A stretch of DNA of 64,000 bases from Candidatus Brocadia sp. (GTDB taxonomy: Bacteria; Planctomycetota; Brocadiia; Brocadiales; Brocadiaceae). Where the stretch lies: contig SOEU01000001.1 of assembly GCA_021646415.1 (NCBI GenBank), positions 124,001-188,000 on the forward strand. The letters run 5' to 3'. Made by a program: the position numbers and the translations under genes. A model generated the notes under the pieces. It did not search any database. It worked only from the letters and a program-made list of their open reading frames with translations, and was not told where the DNA came from. Below, one piece after another: positions 15,993-54,784 of this stretch. Position 1 is the first letter of the stretch. Each line of letters starts with the position of its first letter.

Positions 15993-16124
15993 CACGATAA
16001 AGGCAAACCTTGAGTAATCAGGGGACGCAAAGTAAAGGGTCTTAGCCGCTTAAACGGCTAAAAAATAAGACAGCCTTACTGCCGAAGATTTTCACAATGA
16101 ATATCTTTGCAGTAAGGCTTTTTT
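15993..16124 (+). promoter_or_regulatory. Cyclic di-GMP-I (GEMM) riboswitch with overlapping terminator, upstream of CHRD gene
   Basis: The aptamer core is seen as AAAGGCAAACC, then GGGGACGCAAAG, a variable stem closed by GTCTTA/TAAGAC, and GCCTTACTGCCGAAG. The last segment GCCTTACTGC (16073) can instead pair with GCAGTAAGGC (16109) followed by TTTTTT, a Rho-independent terminator. Ligand binding that holds the aptamer should prevent the terminator, so an ON switch is inferred. A TATAAT at 15983 with TTGAAT at 15958 is a possible promoter (19-base spacing). Confidence 0.88.
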
Positions 16125-16309
16125 ATTTTAAGGCCAATTTTATAAAGAGTCTTTACTTATCTATTATGCGGTAATTAAAACTTGTTGCAGAAAGGAGGGG
16201 ATGCTGGTCTTCTTTGATCATTCGTGGACGTTGGTGCTTTGTGTTTCGTTGGATAGCTAAGGAAGATTGAAAAAATGATTAAAAACCCATTATGCTAAGG
16301 AGGAGTAAG

Positions 16310-16858
16310 ATGGAAAAGATTTTTAGGAAAATTGCGGGCATGGCTATTGCCAGCACAAAGATGTCAAAGATTGGACTGATCACTTCGACCATATTTATAT
16401 TTGCATTTACGGTTTCGTTAGTTCCGTTGAATGCATATAGTCAACAGGGCAAAAGCGTAAAGGCATTTACTGCCATTTTGACCGGAGGTCAGGAAGTTCC
16501 ACAAAATGAAAGCAATGCCTTTGGAGTCGCATTTATAACCTTTGAAGAAGACGAAAAACTTCTCTCTTATTCGATAACCTTTACCGATACCAATTTAATT
16601 GGGTCAGAAACTGCGGCACACTTCCATGGCCCTGCCAATCCAGGGGAGAATGCACCGGTGCTCTTTCCGATAACTCCGGTTCCCGGCAGTCCAAAAGTTG
16701 GGAGCGTCGGTCCGCTCACGGGAAAACAGGTCAGGGATTTGAAGAAAGGGTTACTCTACCTCAACATTCACACCGATGAGTTCCCCGATGGGGAGATCAG
16801 GGGACAGGTGCTGCCTGTTCGAGGAATAAATTTTAAAGATGTAAGTGAAGGTGAGTAA
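16310..16858 (+). CDS. Exported CHRD-domain protein
   Basis: The ATG at 16310 follows AAGGAGG by 6 bases; an upstream ATG at 16292 lies before this site and is not used. The protein of 182 residues has an N-terminal signal sequence ending near NAYSQQ. It then has a CHRD domain: FTAILTGGQEVP, GVAFITFEED, AAHFHGPANPGENAPVLFPI and LLYLNIHTDEFPDGEIRGQV. CHRD domains are also found in chordin and in many exported bacterial proteins; their bacterial role is not settled. Its leader carries a c-di-GMP-I riboswitch, so it is probably made in the sessile or biofilm state and located at the cell surface or in the matrix. Confidence 0.9.
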   Translation: MEKIFRKIAGMAIASTKMSKIGLITSTIFIFAFTVSLVPLNAYSQQGKSVKAFTAILTGGQEVPQNESNAFGVAFITFEEDEKLLSYSITFTDTNLIGSETAAHFHGPANPGENAPVLFPITPVPGSPKVGSVGPLTGKQVRDLKKGLLYLNIHTDEFPDGEIRGQVLPVRGINFKDVSEGE

Positions 16859-41043: not shown

Positions 41044-41203
41044 CACCCGACAAAGGCAAACCACGGGTGACCGTGGGGCGCAAAGTAACAGGGTCTTCGT
41101 AGGGGCGTATTGCAATACACCCATGCCTCCGATAAAAAGACAGCCTTACTGCCGAAGGTGTTTTTCCAATGATACTATCTTTGCAGTAAGGCTTTTTTGT
41201 TTT
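41044..41203 (+). promoter_or_regulatory. Cyclic di-GMP-I (GEMM) riboswitch with overlapping terminator, upstream of STAS-PilZ gene
   Basis: The core reads ACAAAGGCAAACCACGGGTG, ACCGTGGGGCGCAAAG, then a stem closed by GTCTT/AAGAC, and GCCTTACTGCCGAAG. The terminator pairs GCCTTACTGC (41143) with GCAGTAAGGC (41183) and ends in TTTTTTG. The variable stem holds an additional hairpin (GGGGCGTATTGCAATACACCC) of a type seen as a free repeat in many genomes. An ON switch is inferred, as for the copy at 15993. Confidence 0.9.
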
Positions 41204-41257: not shown

Positions 41258-42007
41258 ATGTCGAATACGAACCACATCTTTCCGGCAGGCAATCCAAAGA
41301 TAGAAGTTACCGAGGTCATTGGGGGATTAATCGGCAATGGGACATTGGAGATTCAAAAACATTTATACAGATGTTTGGATGAAGGCAGATGTTATCAGAT
41401 CATCGACCTTGAACACGTAAACCAGATTGACGGGTTAGGGATGGCTTTGATTGAAAATTTTATTTCTCGCGGTTTAGAGATTCGACTTATTAATGTGAAG
41501 CCTGAAGTAAAATCCATTATCTGGATGGCAAAAAAGGAGTCTTTGTTCCGGATAATGTATAACGAGAGAGATCGGACTAAAGCTGCTTCCCTATTTGAAA
41601 AGGATATTTTAGAAAAAAAGGGTATTCCCGGGGATGATGTTCTTAAAAAACGGCTGCATCTTCGGGTCAACACCTCTTTGCCTGCTGAGTTTAAACTTCG
41701 TAAAGATCATGTAAACGCCTCAATCAGGGCAAATATCCTGAACCTGAGTGAGGGCGGTGTACTGGCAGGTCACATGGTTGCTACGAATGTAAATAGGGAA
41801 GAAATTGTCAATTATCATGGGATAGTTGGGCAAGAGATCTCCGATTTGAAGTTCAACCTCAATGGTGATTCGACGTCGATAACTACCCTGGGAAGATGTA
41901 CCAGGGAGTTTACGATCGGGGAATCACTCTATGCAGGGATACGCTTTGAAGAGATAAGTCAGAGACACAGAGAAATTATCCGAACCTTTGTGGATGCCCA
42001 TAAATAA
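41258..42007 (+). CDS. STAS-like plus PilZ domain protein
   Basis: The 249-residue protein has an N-terminal STAS/anti-anti-sigma-like domain (about 10-105: YQIIDLEHVNQIDGLGMALI) and a C-terminal PilZ domain (about 130-245). PilZ features are RLHLRVNTSLPAEFKL (R-x3-R), NILNLSEGGVL (N-x-S-x-x-G) and YAGIRFEEIS. PilZ domains bind c-di-GMP. Its transcript starts with a c-di-GMP-I riboswitch, so both the RNA and the protein should sense the same molecule. It may be a partner-switch protein acting on the exopolysaccharide genes that follow. Confidence 0.85.
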   Translation: MSNTNHIFPAGNPKIEVTEVIGGLIGNGTLEIQKHLYRCLDEGRCYQIIDLEHVNQIDGLGMALIENFISRGLEIRLINVKPEVKSIIWMAKKESLFRIMYNERDRTKAASLFEKDILEKKGIPGDDVLKKRLHLRVNTSLPAEFKLRKDHVNASIRANILNLSEGGVLAGHMVATNVNREEIVNYHGIVGQEISDLKFNLNGDSTSITTLGRCTREFTIGESLYAGIRFEEISQRHREIIRTFVDAHK

Positions 42008-42388: not shown

Positions 42389-42547
42389 GCACGACAAAGG
42401 CAAACCACGGGTGACCGTGGGACGCAAAGGAAAGGATCTTACTAAGCGGTTTAAACAGTTTGAACGGTTTAAGCGGTTTAGTGGAAGATAGCCTTACTGC
42501 CGAAAGATGTTTAACATAATTATCTTTGCGGTAAGGCTTTTTGTTTT
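42389..42547 (+). promoter_or_regulatory. Cyclic di-GMP-I (GEMM) riboswitch with overlapping terminator, upstream of polysaccharide gene
   Basis: GACAAAGGCAAACCACGGGT, GACCGTGGGACGCAAAGG, a stem closed by ATCTT/AAGAT, then GCCTTACTGCCGAAAG. The terminator pairs GCCTTACTGC (42491) with GCGGTAAGGC (42528) and ends in TTTTTG. The variable stem is built of repeated GCGGTTTA / GAACGGTTT units. The gene start follows 13 bases after the terminator. Confidence 0.9.
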
Positions 42548-42559
42548 TCAGGAATTACG

Positions 42560-44860
42560 ATGAAGGCGCTTGAGTGCAAGAAAACCATGAACGATCATGA
42601 GCAACAGGATGATTCACGATTTTTTCCCCGGGGTTTTTATCACAACCTGATGCATCCTACGCATCTCAAACGTTTTCTTTTTTTCCTGATCTTTGACTCT
42701 GCAATTATTGTGTTTTCACTCTATGTCTCTTTCTCCATGCGTTTCGAGTTTATCATCCCTTTTGAATACAAAGTCCTCTTGCTGGAAGCATTGCCGGCTT
42801 TTCTTCTGATAAAGCTGGCTGCATTTCTGTGCTTCAAAATTTATAAAATCACCTGGAAGTATGTGGGCCTCAGCGATCTTGTAAACATTGCCATTGCTCA
42901 GACGGCGTCGGTATCCGTGGTACTGATGCTTATTTTGATTCCCATGCCCTCATGGTTTCATCCGGGTATTCCGGGTTTCTTTTCTTTTAACATGCATCTC
43001 AATGGATTCCCAAGAAGCGTCTTTCTCATCGACGGGATTGTCTCCTTTGTTTTATTCTGCGGACTGAGGTTCTCGAAAAGACTATTTTTTGAAATTATTC
43101 ACAAAAGAGCAACCATACATTCCGGCAAGAAAACACTCATTATTGGCGCCGGAAACACGGGAGACATGATCGTGCGGGACATGAAAAGGCAAGGGTATTG
43201 GGATTATTACCCCATAGGAATGCTGGATAACAACAAAAATAAGGTGGGGACATGTATCCACGGTGTAAAAGTACTCGGCACGACAAACCAATTAAAGGAT
43301 GTTGTCTCTCAATATAAAGTCGAGGCAATCATTATAGCCATTCCGTCACTCAATCATAAAATCCTCAGGAAAATTTATGAATCGGCAAAACAGCTCAAGG
43401 TAAACACAATAAAGATTGTGCCGGGGATCTATGATTTCCACAGACCGGATATCAACACGAAGAATCTTGAAGATATATGCATTGAAGACCTTTTGGGACG
43501 GCAGAAAGTACAAGTAGATTACCAGGAGATAAAAGGCTTTTTACAGAACAAGGTAATCCTTATTACCGGGGCTGGAGGTTCTATCGGCGCCGAACTTGTT
43601 ATGCAGGTGTGTTCATTCCAGCCCAGACAAATCGTTCTTTTCGATATCGATGAAACCGAACTCCATAAGGTAAAACTACGGCTGGAAAAGATATTCCCGA
43701 AGTATTTCCACGGTCAACCTTCACATTCGCGGGCACAGGGGAACGTTGTCTTTATCACAGGGGATATACGGGATGAATATGTCGTCAATGAGACGTTCAG
43801 GAAATTTAAACCCCAGGTGGTATTTCACGCCGCAGCCAATAAGCATGTGCCCATGATGGAGATAAATGCCCGGGAGGCGGTCCAGGTAAATATGTTTGGC
43901 ACCTATCGGGTCGCAAAGGCAGCGGCAGGCCACCACGTCGGGAAATTTATTTTGATCTCCACGGATAAGGCTGTGTGCCCAACCAGTATTATGGGCGCTA
44001 CAAAGCGCATGGCTGAATATATCTGTACGGCGCTGAACGGCTGTTCGAATACCGGCTTTATCTCTGTGAGGTTTGGCAACGTCCTGGGCAGCCGGGGAAG
44101 TGTGTTACCCATATTTCTGGAACAATTAAAGAAAGGCGGGCCGCTCACCGTGACCCATAAGGATGTGCAAAGATTTTTCATGACCATCCCGGAGGCGGTA
44201 TCCCTCGTACTTCAGGCATCCATCATCGGCAATGGCGGGGATATCCTTGTGCTGGACATGGGGCAACCGATACGCATTGTAACCCTGGCTGAGGAGTTGA
44301 TACGTATTCATGGGCTCGAACCATATAAAGAAATCGACATAACATTTACCGGCTTGAGGCCAGGAGAAAAGCTCTTTGAAGAAATTCTCACGGCAGAAGA
44401 AGGCACGACTGCAAGCAGGCATAAAAAAATATTTATCGCAAAAAACAGCGAACGATACTCAAAAGAGGATATCGAAAAAATGCTCATGGGTTTTGACAAA
44501 TTGCTCAAGGTATTGCCGGTAACGGAAGATTATGAAATCATCCGGGACGCCCTGAAAATTTATGTAAAGAGCCTCGAAAGAAGGAGGCAAAAAAGACCGC
44601 CCTGCGGGTCTGAAGGCATTGCAAACGTGGTGGTATCACAAACCGATGAAGTGGATAGCCGTTTCCACAAAACGCAGTTTGATGAACTCCTGAAGGTACT
44701 GCCCCTATTGGAAAACCACGAAAAAATTATCCGTGATACCATAAAAAATTACATAAAAAGTCTTGAAATACGGAGGCAAAAGGTAAATTTCCCGGCACAG
44801 CCTGGAATAATGCCGCAGCCGGAGCGGGGCCAAAGCGCGCCTGAAAACCTCAACAGTTAA
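42560..44860 (+). CDS. Membrane nucleotide-sugar 4,6-dehydratase (PglF/CapD/WbpM type) with repeated C-terminal tail
   Basis: The 766-residue protein has four N-terminal membrane helices (about 35-160), a CoA-binding-like Rossmann domain (TLIIGAGNTGDMIVRDMKRQ, about 193-212), and an SDR dehydratase domain with VILITGAGGSIGAELVMQV (about 333-351), FDIDE, AANKHVPMME and STDKAVCPTSIMGATKRMAE. The Met in place of the usual Tyr is typical of this family. It makes a 4-keto-6-deoxy sugar from a UDP-sugar for surface glycans. After the usual end a tail of about 120 residues holds two similar units (FDKLLKVLPVTEDYEIIRDA and FDELLKVLPLLENHEKIIRD, each ending KSLE-RRQK). A c-di-GMP riboswitch controls it. 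Confidence 0.92.
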   Translation: MKALECKKTMNDHEQQDDSRFFPRGFYHNLMHPTHLKRFLFFLIFDSAIIVFSLYVSFSMRFEFIIPFEYKVLLLEALPAFLLIKLAAFLCFKIYKITWKYVGLSDLVNIAIAQTASVSVVLMLILIPMPSWFHPGIPGFFSFNMHLNGFPRSVFLIDGIVSFVLFCGLRFSKRLFFEIIHKRATIHSGKKTLIIGAGNTGDMIVRDMKRQGYWDYYPIGMLDNNKNKVGTCIHGVKVLGTTNQLKDVVSQYKVEAIIIAIPSLNHKILRKIYESAKQLKVNTIKIVPGIYDFHRPDINTKNLEDICIEDLLGRQKVQVDYQEIKGFLQNKVILITGAGGSIGAELVMQVCSFQPRQIVLFDIDETELHKVKLRLEKIFPKYFHGQPSHSRAQGNVVFITGDIRDEYVVNETFRKFKPQVVFHAAANKHVPMMEINAREAVQVNMFGTYRVAKAAAGHHVGKFILISTDKAVCPTSIMGATKRMAEYICTALNGCSNTGFISVRFGNVLGSRGSVLPIFLEQLKKGGPLTVTHKDVQRFFMTIPEAVSLVLQASIIGNGGDILVLDMGQPIRIVTLAEELIRIHGLEPYKEIDITFTGLRPGEKLFEEILTAEEGTTASRHKKIFIAKNSERYSKEDIEKMLMGFDKLLKVLPVTEDYEIIRDALKIYVKSLERRRQKRPPCGSEGIANVVVSQTDEVDSRFHKTQFDELLKVLPLLENHEKIIRDTIKNYIKSLEIRRQKVNFPAQPGIMPQPERGQSAPENLNS

Positions 44861-45035: not shown

Positions 45036-45326
45036 GTAACACTTTAGTTTTTTGAAAAACTATCAAGGCAAAGCCTTGTGCTGATTTCGCCCCGGAGGGG
45101 CAAATTGCTCATAGGCAGGCAATTTATTGCCTGTGTTAAGAGAAAGATAAAAATAAGCCCTGTAGGGGCGAATGAAGATTATGGATACACAATCGCCTCA
45201 ATCGTCCCTACGGGACTGTATTTCTCTTTGATAAAAATACAGGCAATAAATTGCCTGCCTATTACCTCACGTCCCTATAGGGACTTAAAAAGCACAACGC
45301 ATCTTTCAAAAAAACTAAACTGTTTC
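45036..45326. mobile_element. MITE family 1, copy 2 (291 bp, 8-bp TSD)
   Basis: Ends GTAACACTTTAGTTTTTTG and CAAAAAAACTAAACTGTTTC. The target AAAAGAGT is duplicated at 45028-45035 and 45327-45334. The interior matches copy 1 but has an additional 57-bp segment with a GTCCCTACGGGAC palindrome. A short frame inside it is also present in copy 3, but I do not regard it as a gene. Confidence 0.92.
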
Positions 45327-46108: not shown

Positions 46109-48634
46109 ATGTCTGACCATATACCATTACAACAGGACGTGCATTTAATCGACTACCTCAATGTCATCAGAAAACGGAAATGGGTAGTTATCATTTTCTT
46201 TCTGACCGTAGTCACCACCGTTATCGTTGGATCATTCTGTGCCACGCCCATCTATAAGGCAACCACGCAGCTCATGATAGAAAATAATGATTCACTTCTG
46301 AATGAAATGGCAGACGTCTCAAAGGTGAATATGAATTCTGATGTTCAAAACAAGAGCTACTACCAGACACAATACAAATTACTGGTGAGCAGGAGCCTCG
46401 CAAAGGGTGTCATCGATGAATTAGAGCTCTGGAAGGACTGTAAATTAGAGGATAACAGAAGCGCAAAGGAGCAAGACGCATTGCCTGGCAATTCATCTGA
46501 CCAATCGGAGATACGGAATGACCCGCGCATCATCAAGTGGTACCTGAAAAATCTGGAGATATCCCCTTTACGCGAGACCCACCTGGTTGATATCAGTTTT
46601 CAGCATCCGTCGCCGGAAAGGGCTGCGCTTATTGCCAATACCCATGCCCGTGCGTTTATCGAACGGAACAATCATATCCAGCAACTGGCGTCCCGGCAGG
46701 CGCTGGAGTGGTTCAAGGAACAACTTTTTGCACAAAAAATGAAGGTGGGGACTTCACAGAAGGCGGCATACGAATATAAATACAAACAGCTCCGGTCATT
46801 CACCATCGATGACGAAAGCATCTTTTCCATACCGGAAGTGGAGCAAAACGTCGTCATCCGGAATCTGCAGGGCCAATTGGGCAAGCTGAAGGCAGAAAAA
46901 TCGATCCTGGTCACCAGGTATGGTCCCAAGCACCATAAAATCATTGAGATAGATAACAGCATTGGAAAGCTGGAACAGGGGATCATTAATGAGATACAAT
47001 CGATACGGAAGGCAATCAGGGCGGAACTGAACCGGATCGCCGCGATTGAAAAGATCAACCAGCAAAATCGGCATGTACCCCAAGACAACGTGAAACCTCA
47101 AACCGAAAAGGCCATTAACTATGATATGGTGCGCCTGGAGGCCGAAAGCGATAAGGCAATTTATGATGTCCTGCTTACGCAGGCAAAAGAAGTCAACCTG
47201 ACCGGTAACATGGAAAGGAGCAATATCCGCATTGTGGATGAGGCAGAAGTGCCCACTTCCACGGCCAAACCGCGCATCCTTTTAAATGCCCTCCTGTCTG
47301 TTGTGGTGGGACTGACCTTTGGTGTGGGACTCGCCTTTTTCCTGGAATATATGGATAAAACCGTACGAACGCCGGAGGATGTTACCAAACATCTGAGACT
47401 GCCGGTACTGGGTGCGATACCCTACGACAAGTCTTTAAACGGGGGCAAAACGCCTGTCCTTCCATGGAACGATGCCCACCACGGCGGGCAAAAACCAGTA
47501 AAAGAAGGATATGCATCATATGATATCTCAGGCAGCTTTGTCGCCAGATTACCCCTGATGCAATCAGGCATGCACGGACACGTGTATGTGGTGGAAAGCA
47601 CAACCAAGGGAGAAGGGAAGACCACCGTCCTGGCGAAGCTGGCAATAAACCTGGCGAAAGGGGGATTACGCGTGGTCATGGTGGATGCCGACCTGTACCA
47701 TCCTTCACTCCATCAGGTGTTTGGAACAGAGAACGGCGCGAAACGTGGATTGCTCAATGCCATGGAAGGGGTGCTGTCACAGAATATCATGCAGGGCAAT
47801 TTAAAAAATTACAGTGTGGATGACCTCTTTTCCATCATTGCCCTGAAAAGACTCAGTGGGCAACTCGCCATTAAAAATGATATCCTGAGTATGACTGCCC
47901 TCTTTGAAAATGGCCGTTTATTTCATATCCAGAGTAAGGACATTCCGTTTAATAACCGTCTGGGCGCCATGCTCCTCCGCGGGGGGTTTATTACTGATGA
48001 CCAGTTAAAGGATGCCCTGGAACGCAACCAGCGCACAGGATTTCCGCTCGGATACATCCTTATCAATGCAGGGTACGTGAATCAGGAGCAGCTCAAAGGG
48101 CCATTAAAGCTGCAGATGGAGGAACACCTCCAGAAGCTCTTCAGTTGGAAACACGGCACCTTTACCTTTGAACCAGGGAGTTTAGAAATATACGAAGACA
48201 AAAAGATTTACTTTGAAGAGGATTACACACCGGTCGCCAGGCGTTTGGGGCATACATCGGGGAGTCGACTGTTGAAGCGTGAGGTGTTTTCTCACGTTCA
48301 GCAGGTGAATGGATCTAACATATCACTCTTGCCTGTTGGCGCTGGCCATGTAAACCCCGAAAGCCCCATATACTTTGGGCTTCTCTCAAAATTCCTGTAT
48401 CTCCTGAAACAGCAATGCGATGTGGTGCTCGTGGACGCCCCGCCGATGATGGAGGCCATGAACACCGCGATGCCGTTACTGGAATTTGCAGATGGAGCAA
48501 TCTTTGTGATCAAATCAGGGCACGTCCCTATCGATGCCATCAAGAGGGTTACTGCCGGCATGCAGGAAAACAAGACAAAAATCCTCGGCGCCGTCTTAAA
48601 TCAGGCAAAGACAGGAGGATATTATTATGCATAG
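46109..48634 (+). CDS. Wzz/BY-kinase (Wzc-like) with DUF4388 (PATAN)/MshEN-like insertion in the kinase domain
   Basis: The 841-residue protein has a Wzz domain at the N-terminus (first helix VVIIFFLTVVTTVIVGSFCA), a long helical periplasmic part, and a second helix ILLNALLSVVVGLTFGVGLA (about 389-408). The tyrosine-kinase P-loop part begins with Walker A STTKGEGKTTV (about 496-506) and Walker A' VVMVDADLYHPS (about 522-533). About 120 residues then come in (about 568-690), starting LSGQLAIKNDILSMTALFEN and holding RLGAMLLRGGFITDDQLKDA and LGYILINAGYVNQEQL, then WKHGTFTFEP, which looks like a DUF4388 (PATAN)/MshEN-type domain. After that the kinase resumes with NISLLPVGAGHVNPES and Walker B VVLVDAPPMM (about 771-780). 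It ends in GGYYYA, a short tyrosine cluster. It should control chain length and export of exopolysaccharide. Confidence 0.88.
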   Translation: MSDHIPLQQDVHLIDYLNVIRKRKWVVIIFFLTVVTTVIVGSFCATPIYKATTQLMIENNDSLLNEMADVSKVNMNSDVQNKSYYQTQYKLLVSRSLAKGVIDELELWKDCKLEDNRSAKEQDALPGNSSDQSEIRNDPRIIKWYLKNLEISPLRETHLVDISFQHPSPERAALIANTHARAFIERNNHIQQLASRQALEWFKEQLFAQKMKVGTSQKAAYEYKYKQLRSFTIDDESIFSIPEVEQNVVIRNLQGQLGKLKAEKSILVTRYGPKHHKIIEIDNSIGKLEQGIINEIQSIRKAIRAELNRIAAIEKINQQNRHVPQDNVKPQTEKAINYDMVRLEAESDKAIYDVLLTQAKEVNLTGNMERSNIRIVDEAEVPTSTAKPRILLNALLSVVVGLTFGVGLAFFLEYMDKTVRTPEDVTKHLRLPVLGAIPYDKSLNGGKTPVLPWNDAHHGGQKPVKEGYASYDISGSFVARLPLMQSGMHGHVYVVESTTKGEGKTTVLAKLAINLAKGGLRVVMVDADLYHPSLHQVFGTENGAKRGLLNAMEGVLSQNIMQGNLKNYSVDDLFSIIALKRLSGQLAIKNDILSMTALFENGRLFHIQSKDIPFNNRLGAMLLRGGFITDDQLKDALERNQRTGFPLGYILINAGYVNQEQLKGPLKLQMEEHLQKLFSWKHGTFTFEPGSLEIYEDKKIYFEEDYTPVARRLGHTSGSRLLKREVFSHVQQVNGSNISLLPVGAGHVNPESPIYFGLLSKFLYLLKQQCDVVLVDAPPMMEAMNTAMPLLEFADGAIFVIKSGHVPIDAIKRVTAGMQENKTKILGAVLNQAKTGGYYYA

Positions 48635-48676: not shown

Positions 48677-48966
48677 GAAACAGTTTAGTTTTTTGAAAGA
48701 TGAGTTGTGCTTTTTAAGTCCCTATAGGGACGTGAGGCAATAGGCAGGCAATTTATTGCCTGTATTTTTATCAAAGAGAAATACAGTCCCGTAGGGACGA
48801 TTGAGACGATTTTGTATCCATAATCTTCATTCGCCCCTACAGGGCTTATTTTTATCTTTCTCTTAACACAGGCAATAAATTGCCTGCCTATGAGCAATTT
48901 GCCCCTCCGGGGCGAAATCAGCACAAGGCTTTGCCTTGATAGTTTTTCAAAAAACTAAAGTGTTAC
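48677..48966. mobile_element. MITE family 1, copy 3 (290 bp, inverted relative to copy 2, no TSD)
   Basis: It is almost identical to copy 2 read on the other strand, from GAAACAGTTTAGTTTTTTG to CAAAAAACTAAAGTGTTAC. The flanks GGAATTTG and TAAAGATA do not match, so this copy is probably a recombination junction. The right end cuts a nucleotidyltransferase gene. Confidence 0.9.
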
Positions 48967-49243: not shown

Positions 49244-49511
49244 ATGATAACAGAAAGATAAGGAAATAATCATACGGTGTGCAAAAAAATATAATGTTGC
49301 TTATGTTATTTTGTTTGGTTCTTCTACACGAAAAGACAGGGGATCTAATGATATAGACATCGGAGTAAAGGGAATAAAACCAGAGTTGTTTTTTAATTTC
49401 TATGCGGAGTTATTCAAAAATTTATCGAAACCTGTCGATCTTGTTGATCTGTCTAAGAAATCATTACTTGTTGAGCTCGTGGAAGAAACAGGCGTAAAGA
49501 TATATGGATAA
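49244..49511 (+). pseudogene. MNT-type nucleotidyltransferase (MntA-like) with N-terminal frameshift
   Basis: The ATG at 49244 gives MITER and then a stop. The body runs in another frame as KEIIIRCAKKYNVAYVILFG, then SSTRKDRGSNDIDIGV, and ends DLSKKSLLVELVEETGVKIYG. GSS-x-x-R-x5-ND-D-D is the MNT catalytic pattern. Two missing bases near 49258 would restore one frame. MntA proteins AMPylate and silence HEPN toxins; this copy is probably inactive unless it starts from a rare codon. Confidence 0.72.
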
Positions 49512-49689
49512 ATTGCCAAAGCAAATTATTGCAGAAAAAGAGTATGTTGAGATGGCGCTGAATAATCTGAAAACGGCTTTGGCAAGAAGAGGGAAAACAG
49601 TTATCGAGCTTTTTAAAGAGATGAGCGATATTTTCATGCAGAAAGACTTGACGAAACAGACCATCTTCCTGAATCAGAACACGATGTGA
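49504..49689 (+). CDS. Short HEPN-like protein, possibly truncated
   Basis: The 61-residue frame overlaps the end of the MNT gene by 8 bases, the standard MntA-HepT order. It begins MDKLPKQIIAEKEYVEMALN and NLKTALARRGKTVIELFKEM, helical as in HEPN proteins. It ends after 61 residues, without the R-x4-H motif that HEPN ribonucleases need. It is therefore either a remnant or an unusual small partner. Confidence in a working toxin is low. Confidence 0.5.
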   Translation: MDKLPKQIIAEKEYVEMALNNLKTALARRGKTVIELFKEMSDIFMQKDLTKQTIFLNQNTM

Positions 49690-49756
49690 AAGACTGAATA
49701 ATTTTGTGGTTAGTCTATAAATTAGGCCTTCGGCGACTTTTAAATACAAATTTTTA

Positions 49757-51087: not shown

Positions 51088-52407
51088 ATGGCAAACAGAA
51101 AAAAAGTCCTTATTATGGGAGCGGCAGGTCGTGATTTCCATAATTTTAATGTCTGCTTCCGTGACAACCCCGAATACGAAGTAATTGCATTCACGGCGGC
51201 GCAGATACCGAATATCGCCGGAAGGAAATACCTATCTTCATTAGCTGGTAAACTGTATCCATTCGGAATTCCCATCGAACCAGAACAAAACCTTTCGTCT
51301 CTCATAAAATTACATTCGATTGATGAAGTAGTATTTTCCTATAGCGATGTATCACACGAATACGTCATGCACAAGGCAAGCCTTGTGAATGCTTCGGGCG
51401 CACAGTTTACCCTCCTTGGTGCAAGGCAAACCATGATTAAAAGCAAAAAACCAGTTATTGCTGTCTGTGCAGTAAGAACTGGCAGTGGCAAAAGTCCTGC
51501 CTCGCGAAGGGTCTGCGAGATTTTAAAAGGAATGGGGAAAAAGGTCGTTGTTATAAGACATCCGATGCCGTATGGTGACCTTTCCCGGCAGCGCCTGCAG
51601 CGGTTCGCTTTCTATGACGACTTTCTGAAGCATGATTGCACCATCGAAGAGATTGAAGAATACGAACCACACATAGAACAACACACGGTCGTGTATGCGG
51701 GTGTAGATTATGCAGCAATTCTTGCAGAGGCCGAAAGGGAGACTGATGTTATTGTATGGGACGGTGGCAATAATGACACCCCTTTCTACGTGCCCGACAT
51801 CCATATTACCGTTGTTGATCCGCACCGGCCCGGACATGAACTCATCTATTATCCCGGAGAAACCAACCTTCTCATGGCAGATATTGTTGTGATTAGCAAA
51901 GAAGACACTGCAAAGCCAGAAAATATAAGCCTTGTTAAAAGACATATAAAACAGTCAAATCCAGAAGCTGCCATTGTAGATGCCGCATTACCGATAAACG
52001 TTGAAAAACCCGAACTCATAAAAGGCAAGCGTGCACTGGTTATTGAGGATGGCCCAACCCTGACACACGGAGGTATGTCATTCGGCGCCGGAGTTCTTGC
52101 TGCAAAACAGTATGGTGCAATGGAGATCGTCGACCCAAGGCCTTACGCGGTAGGGTCAATTGTCGAAACTTTTGGGAAATATCCACAGATGGGCAACCTC
52201 TTACCCGCCATGGGTTATGGGCATGCGCAGATGGAAGAGTTACGTGAAACGATACATCGCACTCCGTGTGACATCGTAATTATCGGCACACCTATCGACT
52301 TAAGAAAACTCATACCCATCGACAAACCAACCGACCGGGTTCGGTATAATTTACAGGAAATAAGTACACCTACACTCAAAGAACTCCTTGAAACAAGGCT
52401 ACGATGA
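51088..52407 (+). CDS. Cyclic 2,3-diphosphoglycerate synthetase-like GTPase/ATPase
   Basis: The 439-residue protein has a Rossmann-like N-terminus (KVLIMGAAGRDFHNFNVCFR), a P-loop AVRTGSGKSPASRRV (about 130-144), VIVWDGGNNDTPFYVPDIHI (Walker B region) and LVIEDGPTLTHGGMSFGAGV. This is the family named after archaeal cyclic 2,3-DPG synthetase. In bacteria it is commonly found beside carbamate kinase or ornithine carbamoyltransferase genes, which suggests another reaction. It overlaps the carbamate kinase gene by 4 bases (ATGA). Confidence 0.85.
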   Translation: MANRKKVLIMGAAGRDFHNFNVCFRDNPEYEVIAFTAAQIPNIAGRKYLSSLAGKLYPFGIPIEPEQNLSSLIKLHSIDEVVFSYSDVSHEYVMHKASLVNASGAQFTLLGARQTMIKSKKPVIAVCAVRTGSGKSPASRRVCEILKGMGKKVVVIRHPMPYGDLSRQRLQRFAFYDDFLKHDCTIEEIEEYEPHIEQHTVVYAGVDYAAILAEAERETDVIVWDGGNNDTPFYVPDIHITVVDPHRPGHELIYYPGETNLLMADIVVISKEDTAKPENISLVKRHIKQSNPEAAIVDAALPINVEKPELIKGKRALVIEDGPTLTHGGMSFGAGVLAAKQYGAMEIVDPRPYAVGSIVETFGKYPQMGNLLPAMGYGHAQMEELRETIHRTPCDIVIIGTPIDLRKLIPIDKPTDRVRYNLQEISTPTLKELLETRLR

Positions 52408-53360
52408 AGAAAACCAAAGTTGTCGTCATTGCCTTAGGAGGAAATGCCCTTATCAGGGAGGGACAACAGGGCACGATTGCAGAGCAATTTGAGAATGTCC
52501 AGAAGAGTCTGGATGGCATTATCTATTGCTTAAAGCAGGGCTTTGAGGTAGTCATTACCCATGGAAATGGACCCCAGGTAGGTAATCTGTTACTCATGGT
52601 AGAGGCCAGCCGGAATCAGGTACCAGAACTTTCCCTGGGTGTTTGTGTAGCCGACACCGAAGGTGCAATAGGGTACATGATCCAGCAGTCCCTAACCAAT
52701 CGTTTACGAAAAGAGGGGATCGGCAGATGCGTTGTTACCGTTTTGACGCAGGTCATTGTTGATAAACTTGACAAGGCATTTTCAAATCCCACCAAGCCCA
52801 TTGGACCCTTTTTTACGAAAGAAGAAGCAGAGAACTTTCGCCGGGAGAAAGGCTGGCATATTGGAGAAGACAGCCACAGGGGATACCGTCGGGTAGTTCC
52901 TTCGCCCAACCCACTGAAAATTGTGGAAGAAAGGGCTATAAAAACCCTGTTAGAGGCTGGCGAAATTGTCATAGCCGCTGGTGGAGGTGGTATCCCTGTT
53001 ATTCTGAAAGAAGACGGAGATTTAGAGGGAGTTGACGTTGTTATTGATAAAGACCTTGCCTCCAGTGTCCTGGCACGGGATATGAAAGCTGATTGTCTCA
53101 TGATGCTTACCGGAGTAGAACACGTCTTTTTAAACTTCAAGCAATCGAATGAGCAGGCATTAAGCAGGTTGACAGTAAATGAAGCCCAAAGATATTTCCA
53201 GGAGGGCCATTTCCCTCCGGGAAGTATGGGACCGAAGATTCAGGTGGCCATGAATTTTTTAACCTGGGGCGGTGAGCTGGCAATCATCACTTCCATTGAC
53301 AAGGTCAAAGATGCCCTTGATGGCCGTACTGGTACAAAAATTATAAAAAATTCAATTTGA
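52404..53360 (+). CDS. arcC: Carbamate kinase
   Basis: The 318-residue protein starts VVVIALGGNALIREGQQGTI and continues with VITHGNGPQVGNLLL, KPIGPFFTKEEAE, RRVVPSPNPLKIVE and IAAGGGGIPVI, all typical of carbamate kinase. It forms ATP from carbamoyl phosphate, or the reverse. It is translationally coupled to the cyclic-DPG-synthetase-like gene. No arginine deiminase genes are near, so its role in this operon is not the standard arginine pathway. Confidence 0.95.
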   Translation: MKKTKVVVIALGGNALIREGQQGTIAEQFENVQKSLDGIIYCLKQGFEVVITHGNGPQVGNLLLMVEASRNQVPELSLGVCVADTEGAIGYMIQQSLTNRLRKEGIGRCVVTVLTQVIVDKLDKAFSNPTKPIGPFFTKEEAENFRREKGWHIGEDSHRGYRRVVPSPNPLKIVEERAIKTLLEAGEIVIAAGGGGIPVILKEDGDLEGVDVVIDKDLASSVLARDMKADCLMMLTGVEHVFLNFKQSNEQALSRLTVNEAQRYFQEGHFPPGSMGPKIQVAMNFLTWGGELAIITSIDKVKDALDGRTGTKIIKNSI

Positions 53361-53440
53361 TAAAGAGGTTTGGTCGTGGTTTTTCCCGACAAAATCTTCA
53401 GCAAATGTGGCAATGCTATCGGGTGATTCCCGTGGTCAGG
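53357..53440 (+). pseudogene. Fragment of a DUF1016/PDDEXK (YhcG-type) gene
   Basis: The frame FGRGFSRQNLQQMWQCYRV resembles the FGRGFS-x-x-NL-x-x-MR-x-FY motif of the DUF1016 N-terminal domain. Homology ends within about 30 codons, and the frame that continues to 53626 has no further family features. The fragment sits directly after arcC. The rest of 53441-53665 shows only AT-rich spacer. Confidence 0.55.
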
Positions 53441-53665
53441 ATCTCACTTCAAATCAGATATGCACGATTGAGAGATGCCTTTAAAACTGGTTGGGGTGTA
53501 ACAGCACAAGGGCAATTTTCTATAAGTGCTGTAATCTTCTCGATACTAACAAAACATATATTAAATAATAGCGCTGCAATATTTAATATATATCGGCATA
53601 TTAAAAGATATTTGATATATTTTTAATATGAATTTTCTTATTAAAAGTTTTATCAACCATCAAAT

Positions 53666-54784
53666 ATGAAAGAAAACACATTTTTGTCCGGTACTTGCAA
53701 ACAGCAATATAAATATAAAAGTTTTAGCCCTTCATTTATCAATAAACCTTTTGAATGGTGTGATGCAAAAATTACTATTCTTTTGGAGGAGGCGGGACGG
53801 TTGCTGGGAGAGCTCAATGCCTATTCACTCCTTGTACCGGATGTTGATTTTTTTATTCGAATGCATGTGGTTAAGGAAGCCACTACTTCAAGCCGTATTG
53901 AAGGTACCCGAACAGGAATCGACGAAGCACTTTTACCGGAAGAAGAAATTGCCCTTGAAAGACGCAATGATTGGGAAGAAGTGCAAAACTATATCCAGGC
54001 AATGAACTATGCTATTGCCGAACTTGAGAAGTTACCGCTCTCTATGCGACTTTTGAAAGAGACTCATAATAAACTGTTTTCAGGCGTACGAGGAAAACAT
54101 AAAAATCCGGGCAAAATAAGAACAAGTCAGAATTGGATCAGTGGATCAAGTTTACGGGATGCCTTTTTTATTCCTCCTTATCAAAATGAGCTTCCTGAAT
54201 TGTTAAGTGACCTGGAAAAATTCTGGCATAATCAGGAATTGAACATTCCTCATCTGATTAACATAGCAATGAGCCATTATCAATTTGAAACTATCCATCC
54301 CTTTTTAGATGGTAATGGGAGAATCGGGAGGCTACTTATTACCCTGCAACTGGTCGAACGGGGAATTTTGCGCAAACCTACATTATATCTTTCTGATTTT
54401 TTCGAACGAAACAAAGGTTCTTATTATGATTCACTGGCACTGGTTCGATCATCAAACAATATCGAACAATGGATTAAATTCTTTTTGTCTGGAATTATAG
54501 AGACCGCCAAAAACGGAGCACAGACTTTTGGAAGTATTATTACGCTCCGTCAGAATTATGAAGCGAAGATAGTAACCCTTGGAAGACGGGCAAAAATAGC
54601 GCAGGAGTTGTTAAAACTCTTATTTTCCAGGCCAATAGTGAATGCTAATCAAATTGCCGAAAAGCTCAAAATAACATTTCCTTCTGCCAATGCGCTTGTA
54701 AAAGATTTTCAACGATTGGGTCTTTTCCAGGAAATTACCGGATTTTGCCCGCAACCGATTATTTGCCTTATCAGAGTATCTTAA
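53666..54784 (+). CDS. Fic family protein (class II)
   Basis: The 372-residue protein carries the Fic motif [14 protein letters not shown] (about 211-224) and the N-terminal inhibitory helix motif TSSRIEGT (about 73-80), as in class II Fic proteins. A Fic_N region precedes it and a winged-helix-like C-terminus ([20 protein letters not shown]) follows. It should AMPylate, or otherwise nucleotidylate, a protein target. It stands alone after a decayed nuclease fragment. Confidence 0.92.

Follow-up and report, generated by a model that had tools for sequence, protein, structure and literature searches.

Our subject is a single gene in a 64,000-nucleotide stretch of a Candidatus Brocadia contig, which we call the window and whose positions number all the genes and features below. 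The gene encodes a Wzc-type polysaccharide co-polymerase (PCP) of 841 residues, with a DUF4388 domain set into its P-loop domain between Walker A' and Walker B. Within the DUF4388 domain lies a motif of the MshEN type, the kind through which MshE binds cyclic di-GMP (c-di-GMP). We read the protein as a Wzc-like exporter with a built-in c-di-GMP receptor, switched by c-di-GMP in place of tyrosine autophosphorylation, and would put this at a little better than even (roughly 0.55). What is new here, going by the sequences, is the company the receptor motif keeps. Fusion proteins in which it is intact (class B below) have lost the features of an autophosphorylating ring and most of the tyrosine tail, and have kept their ATPase motifs.

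The insert itself is readily recognized. The DUF4388 profile PF14332 matches it at 73 bits (gathering cut-off 25), and NF053729, the NCBIfam model of an MshE-related c-di-GMP motif, matches residues 617-664 at 51.4 bits (curated cut-off 38). Because the second match falls inside the first, the insert is nested twice, as kinase [DUF4388 [MshEN]]; the inner motif consists of two 24-residue halves and a 5-residue spacer. Among solved structures, the nearest to the insert are the N-domains of PilF, PilB and MshE, and the nearest to the whole protein are Wzc and CapB. The Pfam P-loop families ParA, CbiA and AAA_31 match from residue 491. We drew the boundaries of the insert from an alignment with 11 insert-less sister kinases of the window's order, Brocadiales; the match of such sisters skips from about position 570 to 746 of the model, past the insert.

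These results bear out the original prediction, made from the letters of the window alone, that a Wzc-like kinase domain is split by a DUF4388/MshEN-like domain: both profiles exceed their cut-offs (E 2.7e-20 for PF14332), and sisters without the insert exist. Its placement at residues 568-690 was right as to site and somewhat short as to extent, the sister alignment giving about 556-717. Chance similarity can be set aside: two curated models independent of each other match, every orthologue has the identical layout, and the motif is its best-conserved segment. A mere long loop is also hard to credit; the profiles and the insert-less sisters indicate a domain, although AlphaFold2 gave the insert low confidence. 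As the same prediction had supposed, the host is a polysaccharide-export protein, with Wzz and GNVR domains and, beside its relatives, Wza-type genes.

We define class B as the 19 fusion proteins that have the insert and an intact c-di-GMP motif, and compare them with 28 others: the 11 insert-less sisters and 17 kinases of what we call class A. In bacterial tyrosine kinases (BY-kinases), the EX2RX2R motif and the Y-cluster each account for roughly half the octamer interface (PMC3795738), and the Wzc octamer comes apart when its tail is phosphorylated (PMC8285477). EX2RX2R is absent from all 19 class B proteins, as are the arginine of Walker A' (DxDxR), PPNPSELL and the S/TDA after Walker B. 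The comparison set has DxDxR, PPNPSELL and S/TDA in 28 of 28, and EX2RX2R in 25 by the strict pattern and 28 by a relaxed one; the insert-less sisters taken separately retain each of these features (11/11), one having Lys for the first Arg of EX2RX2R. Class B tails hold 1-6 tyrosines (median 3, most 1-4) against 5-11 in the comparison set. Walker B, by contrast, is retained in 19/19 class B proteins and in every comparison protein, and the Walker A lysine and both Walker A' aspartates are invariant among ten aligned orthologues. Five class B proteins tested against TIGR01007, the NCBI BY-kinase model, score 73-86 bits where the cut-off is 108. Such proteins may be ATPases or co-polymerases that no longer work as autokinases.

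It would be easy to blame the insert for that low score. Class A rules this out, for it carries the insert and yet passes. It comprises about 17 stand-alone kinases, mostly of 411-448 residues, with the insert at the same site, from 146 genomes of the order to which a metagenome-assembled genome (MAG) labelled Desulfobacterales belongs. All 17 that we read have DxDxR, PPNPSE and S/TDA, 15 have EX2RX2R (17 if Asn is allowed), their tails carry 6-9 tyrosines, and the three tested reach 160-180 bits. Here it is the c-di-GMP motif that is broken: in 17/17 motif I no longer has its third-position Gly, and in 17/17 Ala or Ser stands in place of Leu25. Loss of the kinase features therefore tracks the intact c-di-GMP motif and not the insert itself. 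That exactly the intact-motif proteins have lost the parts of the tyrosine switch suggests that one control system replaced the other. We advance the full form of this idea only tentatively, at somewhat less than even odds: a second messenger took over from covalent tyrosine phosphorylation, the receptor being gained in the P-loop domain and the ring and tail elements of the autokinase lost, which would leave c-di-GMP to govern ring assembly or ATP turnover.

Would the motif bind its ligand? The c-di-GMP ligand residues of MshE were defined by Wang et al., and Gln32 is required there (PMC5013675). At the corresponding positions of the window protein, motif I has R L G L L N and motif II has P L G L L Q, which matches the strict consensus at 10 of 12; the exceptions are Pro for R38 and Asn for Q32. 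R9, G11, L25, G40, L54 and Q61 are invariant across the 19 intact-motif proteins. The c-di-GMP binder PilF GSPII-C likewise has Pro at the first Arg of motif II (PMC11731258), so that Gln32 to Asn appears to be the sole ligand change for which we found no binding precedent. A near-match motif may fail to bind, as in PilF GSPII-A, where the third-position Gly matters (PMC12002112); in our 19 proteins that glycine is invariant. With most ligand positions kept, Pro38 precedented and only Asn32 unproven, binding of c-di-GMP by the insert is likely.

The fusion is not confined to one genome or one phylum. One genome scan gave nine relatives with the same layout, from Brocadia, Jettenia, Anammoxibacter, Scalindua (two copies) and MAGs labelled Desulfobacterales and Nitrospirae. 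Of 62 Brocadiales genomes, 14 have the full-length fusion, insert included, as do 4 of the 146 genomes of the order containing the Desulfobacterales MAG and 2 of 120 genomes of a Nitrospirota class. Mis-binned contigs as the source of the copies outside the anammox bacteria are ruled out, since the fusion turns up in additional genomes of both groups. The survey of other genomes proposed in the original prediction thus turned up three lineages and, in class A, a second class of kinase. Searched against 392 genomes of the phylum, a model of the insert gave many matches to positions 7-136 of the query, which is the DUF4388[MshEN] core only; in seven of the eight Planctomycetota matches scanned, DUF4388 stands at the start of a longer protein, mostly with TPR repeats. 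These matches indicate that the module is common in the phylum and came to be inserted in a kinase. The genome of the window has 12 GGDEF domains and five MshEN motifs in all, and we found no second DUF4388 in it.

How might such a protein work? As an inner-membrane, PCP-type protein like Wzc, it would serve Wza/Wzx-dependent polysaccharide export. In the P-loop domain, the DUF4388 domain with its internal MshEN motif sits in the loop that leads from the A' strand to the one preceding Walker B, and c-di-GMP would bind the four-helix MshEN bundle. The last MshEN helix would continue into the DUF4388 core (a predicted helix at 665-681 bridges the two, with pLDDT, the AlphaFold2 confidence score, below 50) and binding would shift the attached loop. 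The shift could alter assembly of the cytoplasmic ring or nucleotide turnover, and the change in the ring would start or stop polymer export. In this scheme the c-di-GMP step would substitute for autophosphorylation of the tyrosine-rich tail.

Several points weigh against our reading. The fold of the insert rests on sequence profiles: in the AlphaFold2 model, built from a ten-sequence alignment, the insert is mostly below pLDDT 60. In favour of our reading, the kinase halves were modelled confidently (10-residue block means mostly pLDDT 75-91), and the best Foldseek matches are Wzc, VpsO, CapB, Etk and BceF, all BY-kinases, at probability 1.00 and with nearly the whole query aligned; the P-loop fold therefore closes around the insert. 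Only one of the 19 has Gln at position 32; the others have Asn (14), His (3) or Cys (1). Among the ten orthologues the MshEN segment has a mean pairwise identity of 0.80, compared with 0.61 and 0.51 for the kinase halves, which speaks for our reading; the DUF4388 end, however, stands at 0.79, so that ligand binding alone does not account for the conservation. Class B forms one clade (support 100/100) and each class forms one group in unrooted trees; with one clade set against the rest, the trade-off between motif and ring features counts as one evolutionary event. Lastly, the remnant tail of 1-6 tyrosines leaves room for weak autophosphorylation.

That last point leads to a different account, in which the protein has kept its tyrosine autokinase activity and c-di-GMP, bound at the insert, turns autophosphorylation of the short YYY tail up or down. 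The Walker A lysine, both A' aspartates, Walker B and some tail tyrosines in all 19 proteins are what one would expect of it. We think it rather unlikely, given the absence of EX2RX2R, the DxDxR arginine, PPNPSELL and S/TDA from 19/19 and scores well under the BY-kinase cut-off that insert-bearing canonical kinases pass. The original prediction spoke of a kinase gated by c-di-GMP. Its receptor-type domain is real and conserved, and control by c-di-GMP is plausible in this neighbourhood; the word kinase is what fares badly. We consider an exporter gated by c-di-GMP likely, and a tyrosine kinase so gated less likely. Alternatively the insert could be a DUF4388/PATAN interaction or structural module that has lost c-di-GMP binding and docks some partner, for instance a cognate regulator or a Wza or Wzy component. 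Replacement of Gln32 in 18/19, a DUF4388 end as conserved as the motif, the persistence of class A inserts despite broken motifs and the case of PilF GSPII-A, by which look-alikes can fail to bind (PMC12002112), would all fit. The remaining ligand positions, however, are kept in nearly all 19 proteins across three lineages and decayed in class A, and the glycine critical in PilF never varies; we regard such a module as unlikely. It is highly improbable that the protein is a decaying, non-functional Wzc and its insert evolutionary debris. Canonical motifs have been lost, and the genome's other Wzc-type protein has no Walker A lysine, but reading frames are open in nearly all relatives, conservation is strong across three lineages, the Walker motifs are retained and Wza neighbours are present.

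Table 1. Features of the kinase-like gene, its upstream neighbours and the class A kinases; positions are those of the window unless a locus is named.
Feature	Position	Strand	Basis
c-di-GMP-I-GGC riboswitch ahead of STAS-PilZ gene	41046..41157	+	RF03167, 60 bits
STAS-PilZ protein, predicted as this locus's second c-di-GMP receptor	41258..42007	+	PF01740, PF07238
c-di-GMP-I-GGC riboswitch ahead of FlaA1-like gene	42390..42505	+	RF03167, 59.9 bits
FlaA1-like nucleotide-sugar dehydratase/epimerase (Polysacc_synt_2), adjoins kinase	42560..44860	+	PF02719, E 4.3e-107
Kinase-like P-loop protein of 841 residues (Wzc-type polysaccharide co-polymerase) that carries the nested insert	46109..48634	+	Open reading frame, domain matches, nine orthologues
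Wzz domain, residues 11-105	46139..46423	+	PF02706, E 7.5e-12
GNVR domain, residues 344-411, runs into second transmembrane segment	47138..47341	+	PF13807, E 1.1e-12
Walker A STTKGEGKTT, residues 497-506	47597..47626	+	Lys504 invariant; orthologue and sister alignments
Walker A' VMVDADLY, Arg of DxDxR replaced, both Asp retained	47675..47698	+	Orthologue alignment, motif count
Whole inserted segment, about residues 556-717, not in sister kinases	47774..48259	+	Alignment with 11 insert-less sisters; model-match jump from about 570 to 746
DUF4388 domain, residues 562-693	47792..48187	+	PF14332, E 2.7e-20
MshEN-type c-di-GMP motif, residues 617-669, within DUF4388	47957..48115	+	NF053729, E 6.7e-14; positions checked against PMC5013675
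Walker B DVVLVDAPP, residues 771-779	48419..48445	+	Orthologue alignment, motif count
Short C-terminal tail QAKTGGYYYA, 3 tyrosines	48602..48631	+	Tail tyrosine count
Class A stand-alone BY-kinases, Desulfobacterota	L087:1309-2616, L093-L108	- for L087	DUF4388[MshEN-like] insert

The neighbourhood may be under c-di-GMP control as well (Table 1). Riboswitches for c-di-GMP on neighbouring genes had been predicted, and members of the c-di-GMP-I-GGC family, putative c-di-GMP sensors, do stand ahead of the STAS-PilZ and FlaA1-like genes; a search of the kinase's own leader found none. At two other Brocadia loci a riboswitch of the c-di-GMP-I family is found at, or shortly ahead of, the matching FlaA1-like gene. 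Wza-like Poly_export/SLBB genes are directly upstream of the fusion at four loci (L005, L006, L007, L009), and directly beside the window copy no such gene was found. Other fusion loci have flippase, UDP-glucose dehydrogenase, FlaA1-like and glycosyltransferase-PilZ genes close by. Near a Scalindua kinase copy, for instance, a family 4 glycosyltransferase is fused to PilZ (L010:4353-5786), a further predicted link between c-di-GMP and polysaccharide synthesis.

A 278-nucleotide inverted repeat flanks the kinase gene (45036-45313 and 48689-48966, 99% complementary). The repeat is dispersed; the genome has about 17 complete or almost complete copies of it, all with inverted arms inside them in the manner of a miniature inverted-repeat transposable element, and we therefore do not favour an inversion switch specific to this gene. 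On another contig of the same genome (C9, L109:5019-6707), a second Wzc-type protein of 563 residues lies beside a Wza-exporter-like protein; its Walker A reads PIDGSTT, without lysine, and it has no tyrosine tail. It is likely a pseudo-kinase by its motifs, and nevertheless exceeds the TIGR01007 cut-off. Elsewhere in the window, a third c-di-GMP-I-GGC riboswitch (15993-16087) lies upstream of a small secreted-looking protein (16292-16858) with a candidate likeness to CHRD-domain proteins. Just downstream of the kinase, short frames at 49260-49700 resemble the remains of a nucleotidyltransferase (MNT/HEPN-like) pair. The stretch 51088-54784 contains a 439-residue protein (51088-52407), then a carbamate kinase at 52404-53360, then a protein with a Fic domain at 53666-54784.

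Anammox bacteria live in granules held together by polymers, and their genetics is difficult. Known direct control of exopolysaccharides by c-di-GMP is exerted mainly at synthases or at transcription; BcsA and Alg44 are examples of PilZ- or MshEN-type direct control of exopolysaccharide production. For Wzx/Wzy-type systems it is the Wzc tyrosine phosphorylation cycle that is accepted as the master switch. The open-access literature that we searched does not link DUF4388 to c-di-GMP or MshEN, with DUF4388 itself mentioned in a single paper, and the titles and abstract excerpts of the five open-access papers mentioning both BY-kinases and c-di-GMP name no link of the present kind. For the E. coli Nfr system direct c-di-GMP control of exopolysaccharide production is reported (PMC8669469), and a review reports that c-di-GMP rises with extracellular polymeric substances in aerobic and anammox granular sludge (PMC11224092). 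Our protein offers a concrete candidate for linking c-di-GMP to matrix export in anammox bacteria. If our reading is true, it would also be a natural test of what the phosphorylation cycle is for, namely the building and taking apart of the ring itself, by whatever means.

Set beside the BY-kinases Wzc, CapAB and VpsO (PCP-2a), the fusion shares Wzz, GNVR, two membrane segments and a P-loop domain with Walker A, A' and B, and its relatives also share the adjoining Wza-type gene; it differs in being interrupted by DUF4388[MshEN], in the loss of the ring motifs and in a tail cut down to 1-6 tyrosines. With MshE, PilF GSPII-B and -C and NfrB it has in common the two 24-residue motifs, the 5-residue spacer and mostly the same ligand residues, down to the proline at the first position of motif II in GSPII-C. 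Theirs, however, form the N-terminal end of a secretion ATPase or are carried by a glycosyltransferase, whereas this one is nested in DUF4388 in a P-loop domain, and unlike the MshEN/GSPII receptors 18 of the 19 fusion proteins have replaced Gln32. The DUF4388[MshEN]-TPR proteins of Planctomycetota have the same nested module, but at the N-terminus of long, often TPR-bearing proteins and not inside an enzyme. Class A has the same insert, site and kinase fold as class B, with canonical motifs kept and the c-di-GMP motif broken. And where in BcsA, Alg44 and NfrB the receptor acts on a glycosyltransferase or synthase, the receptor predicted here would be lodged in the co-polymerase and export ATPase itself.
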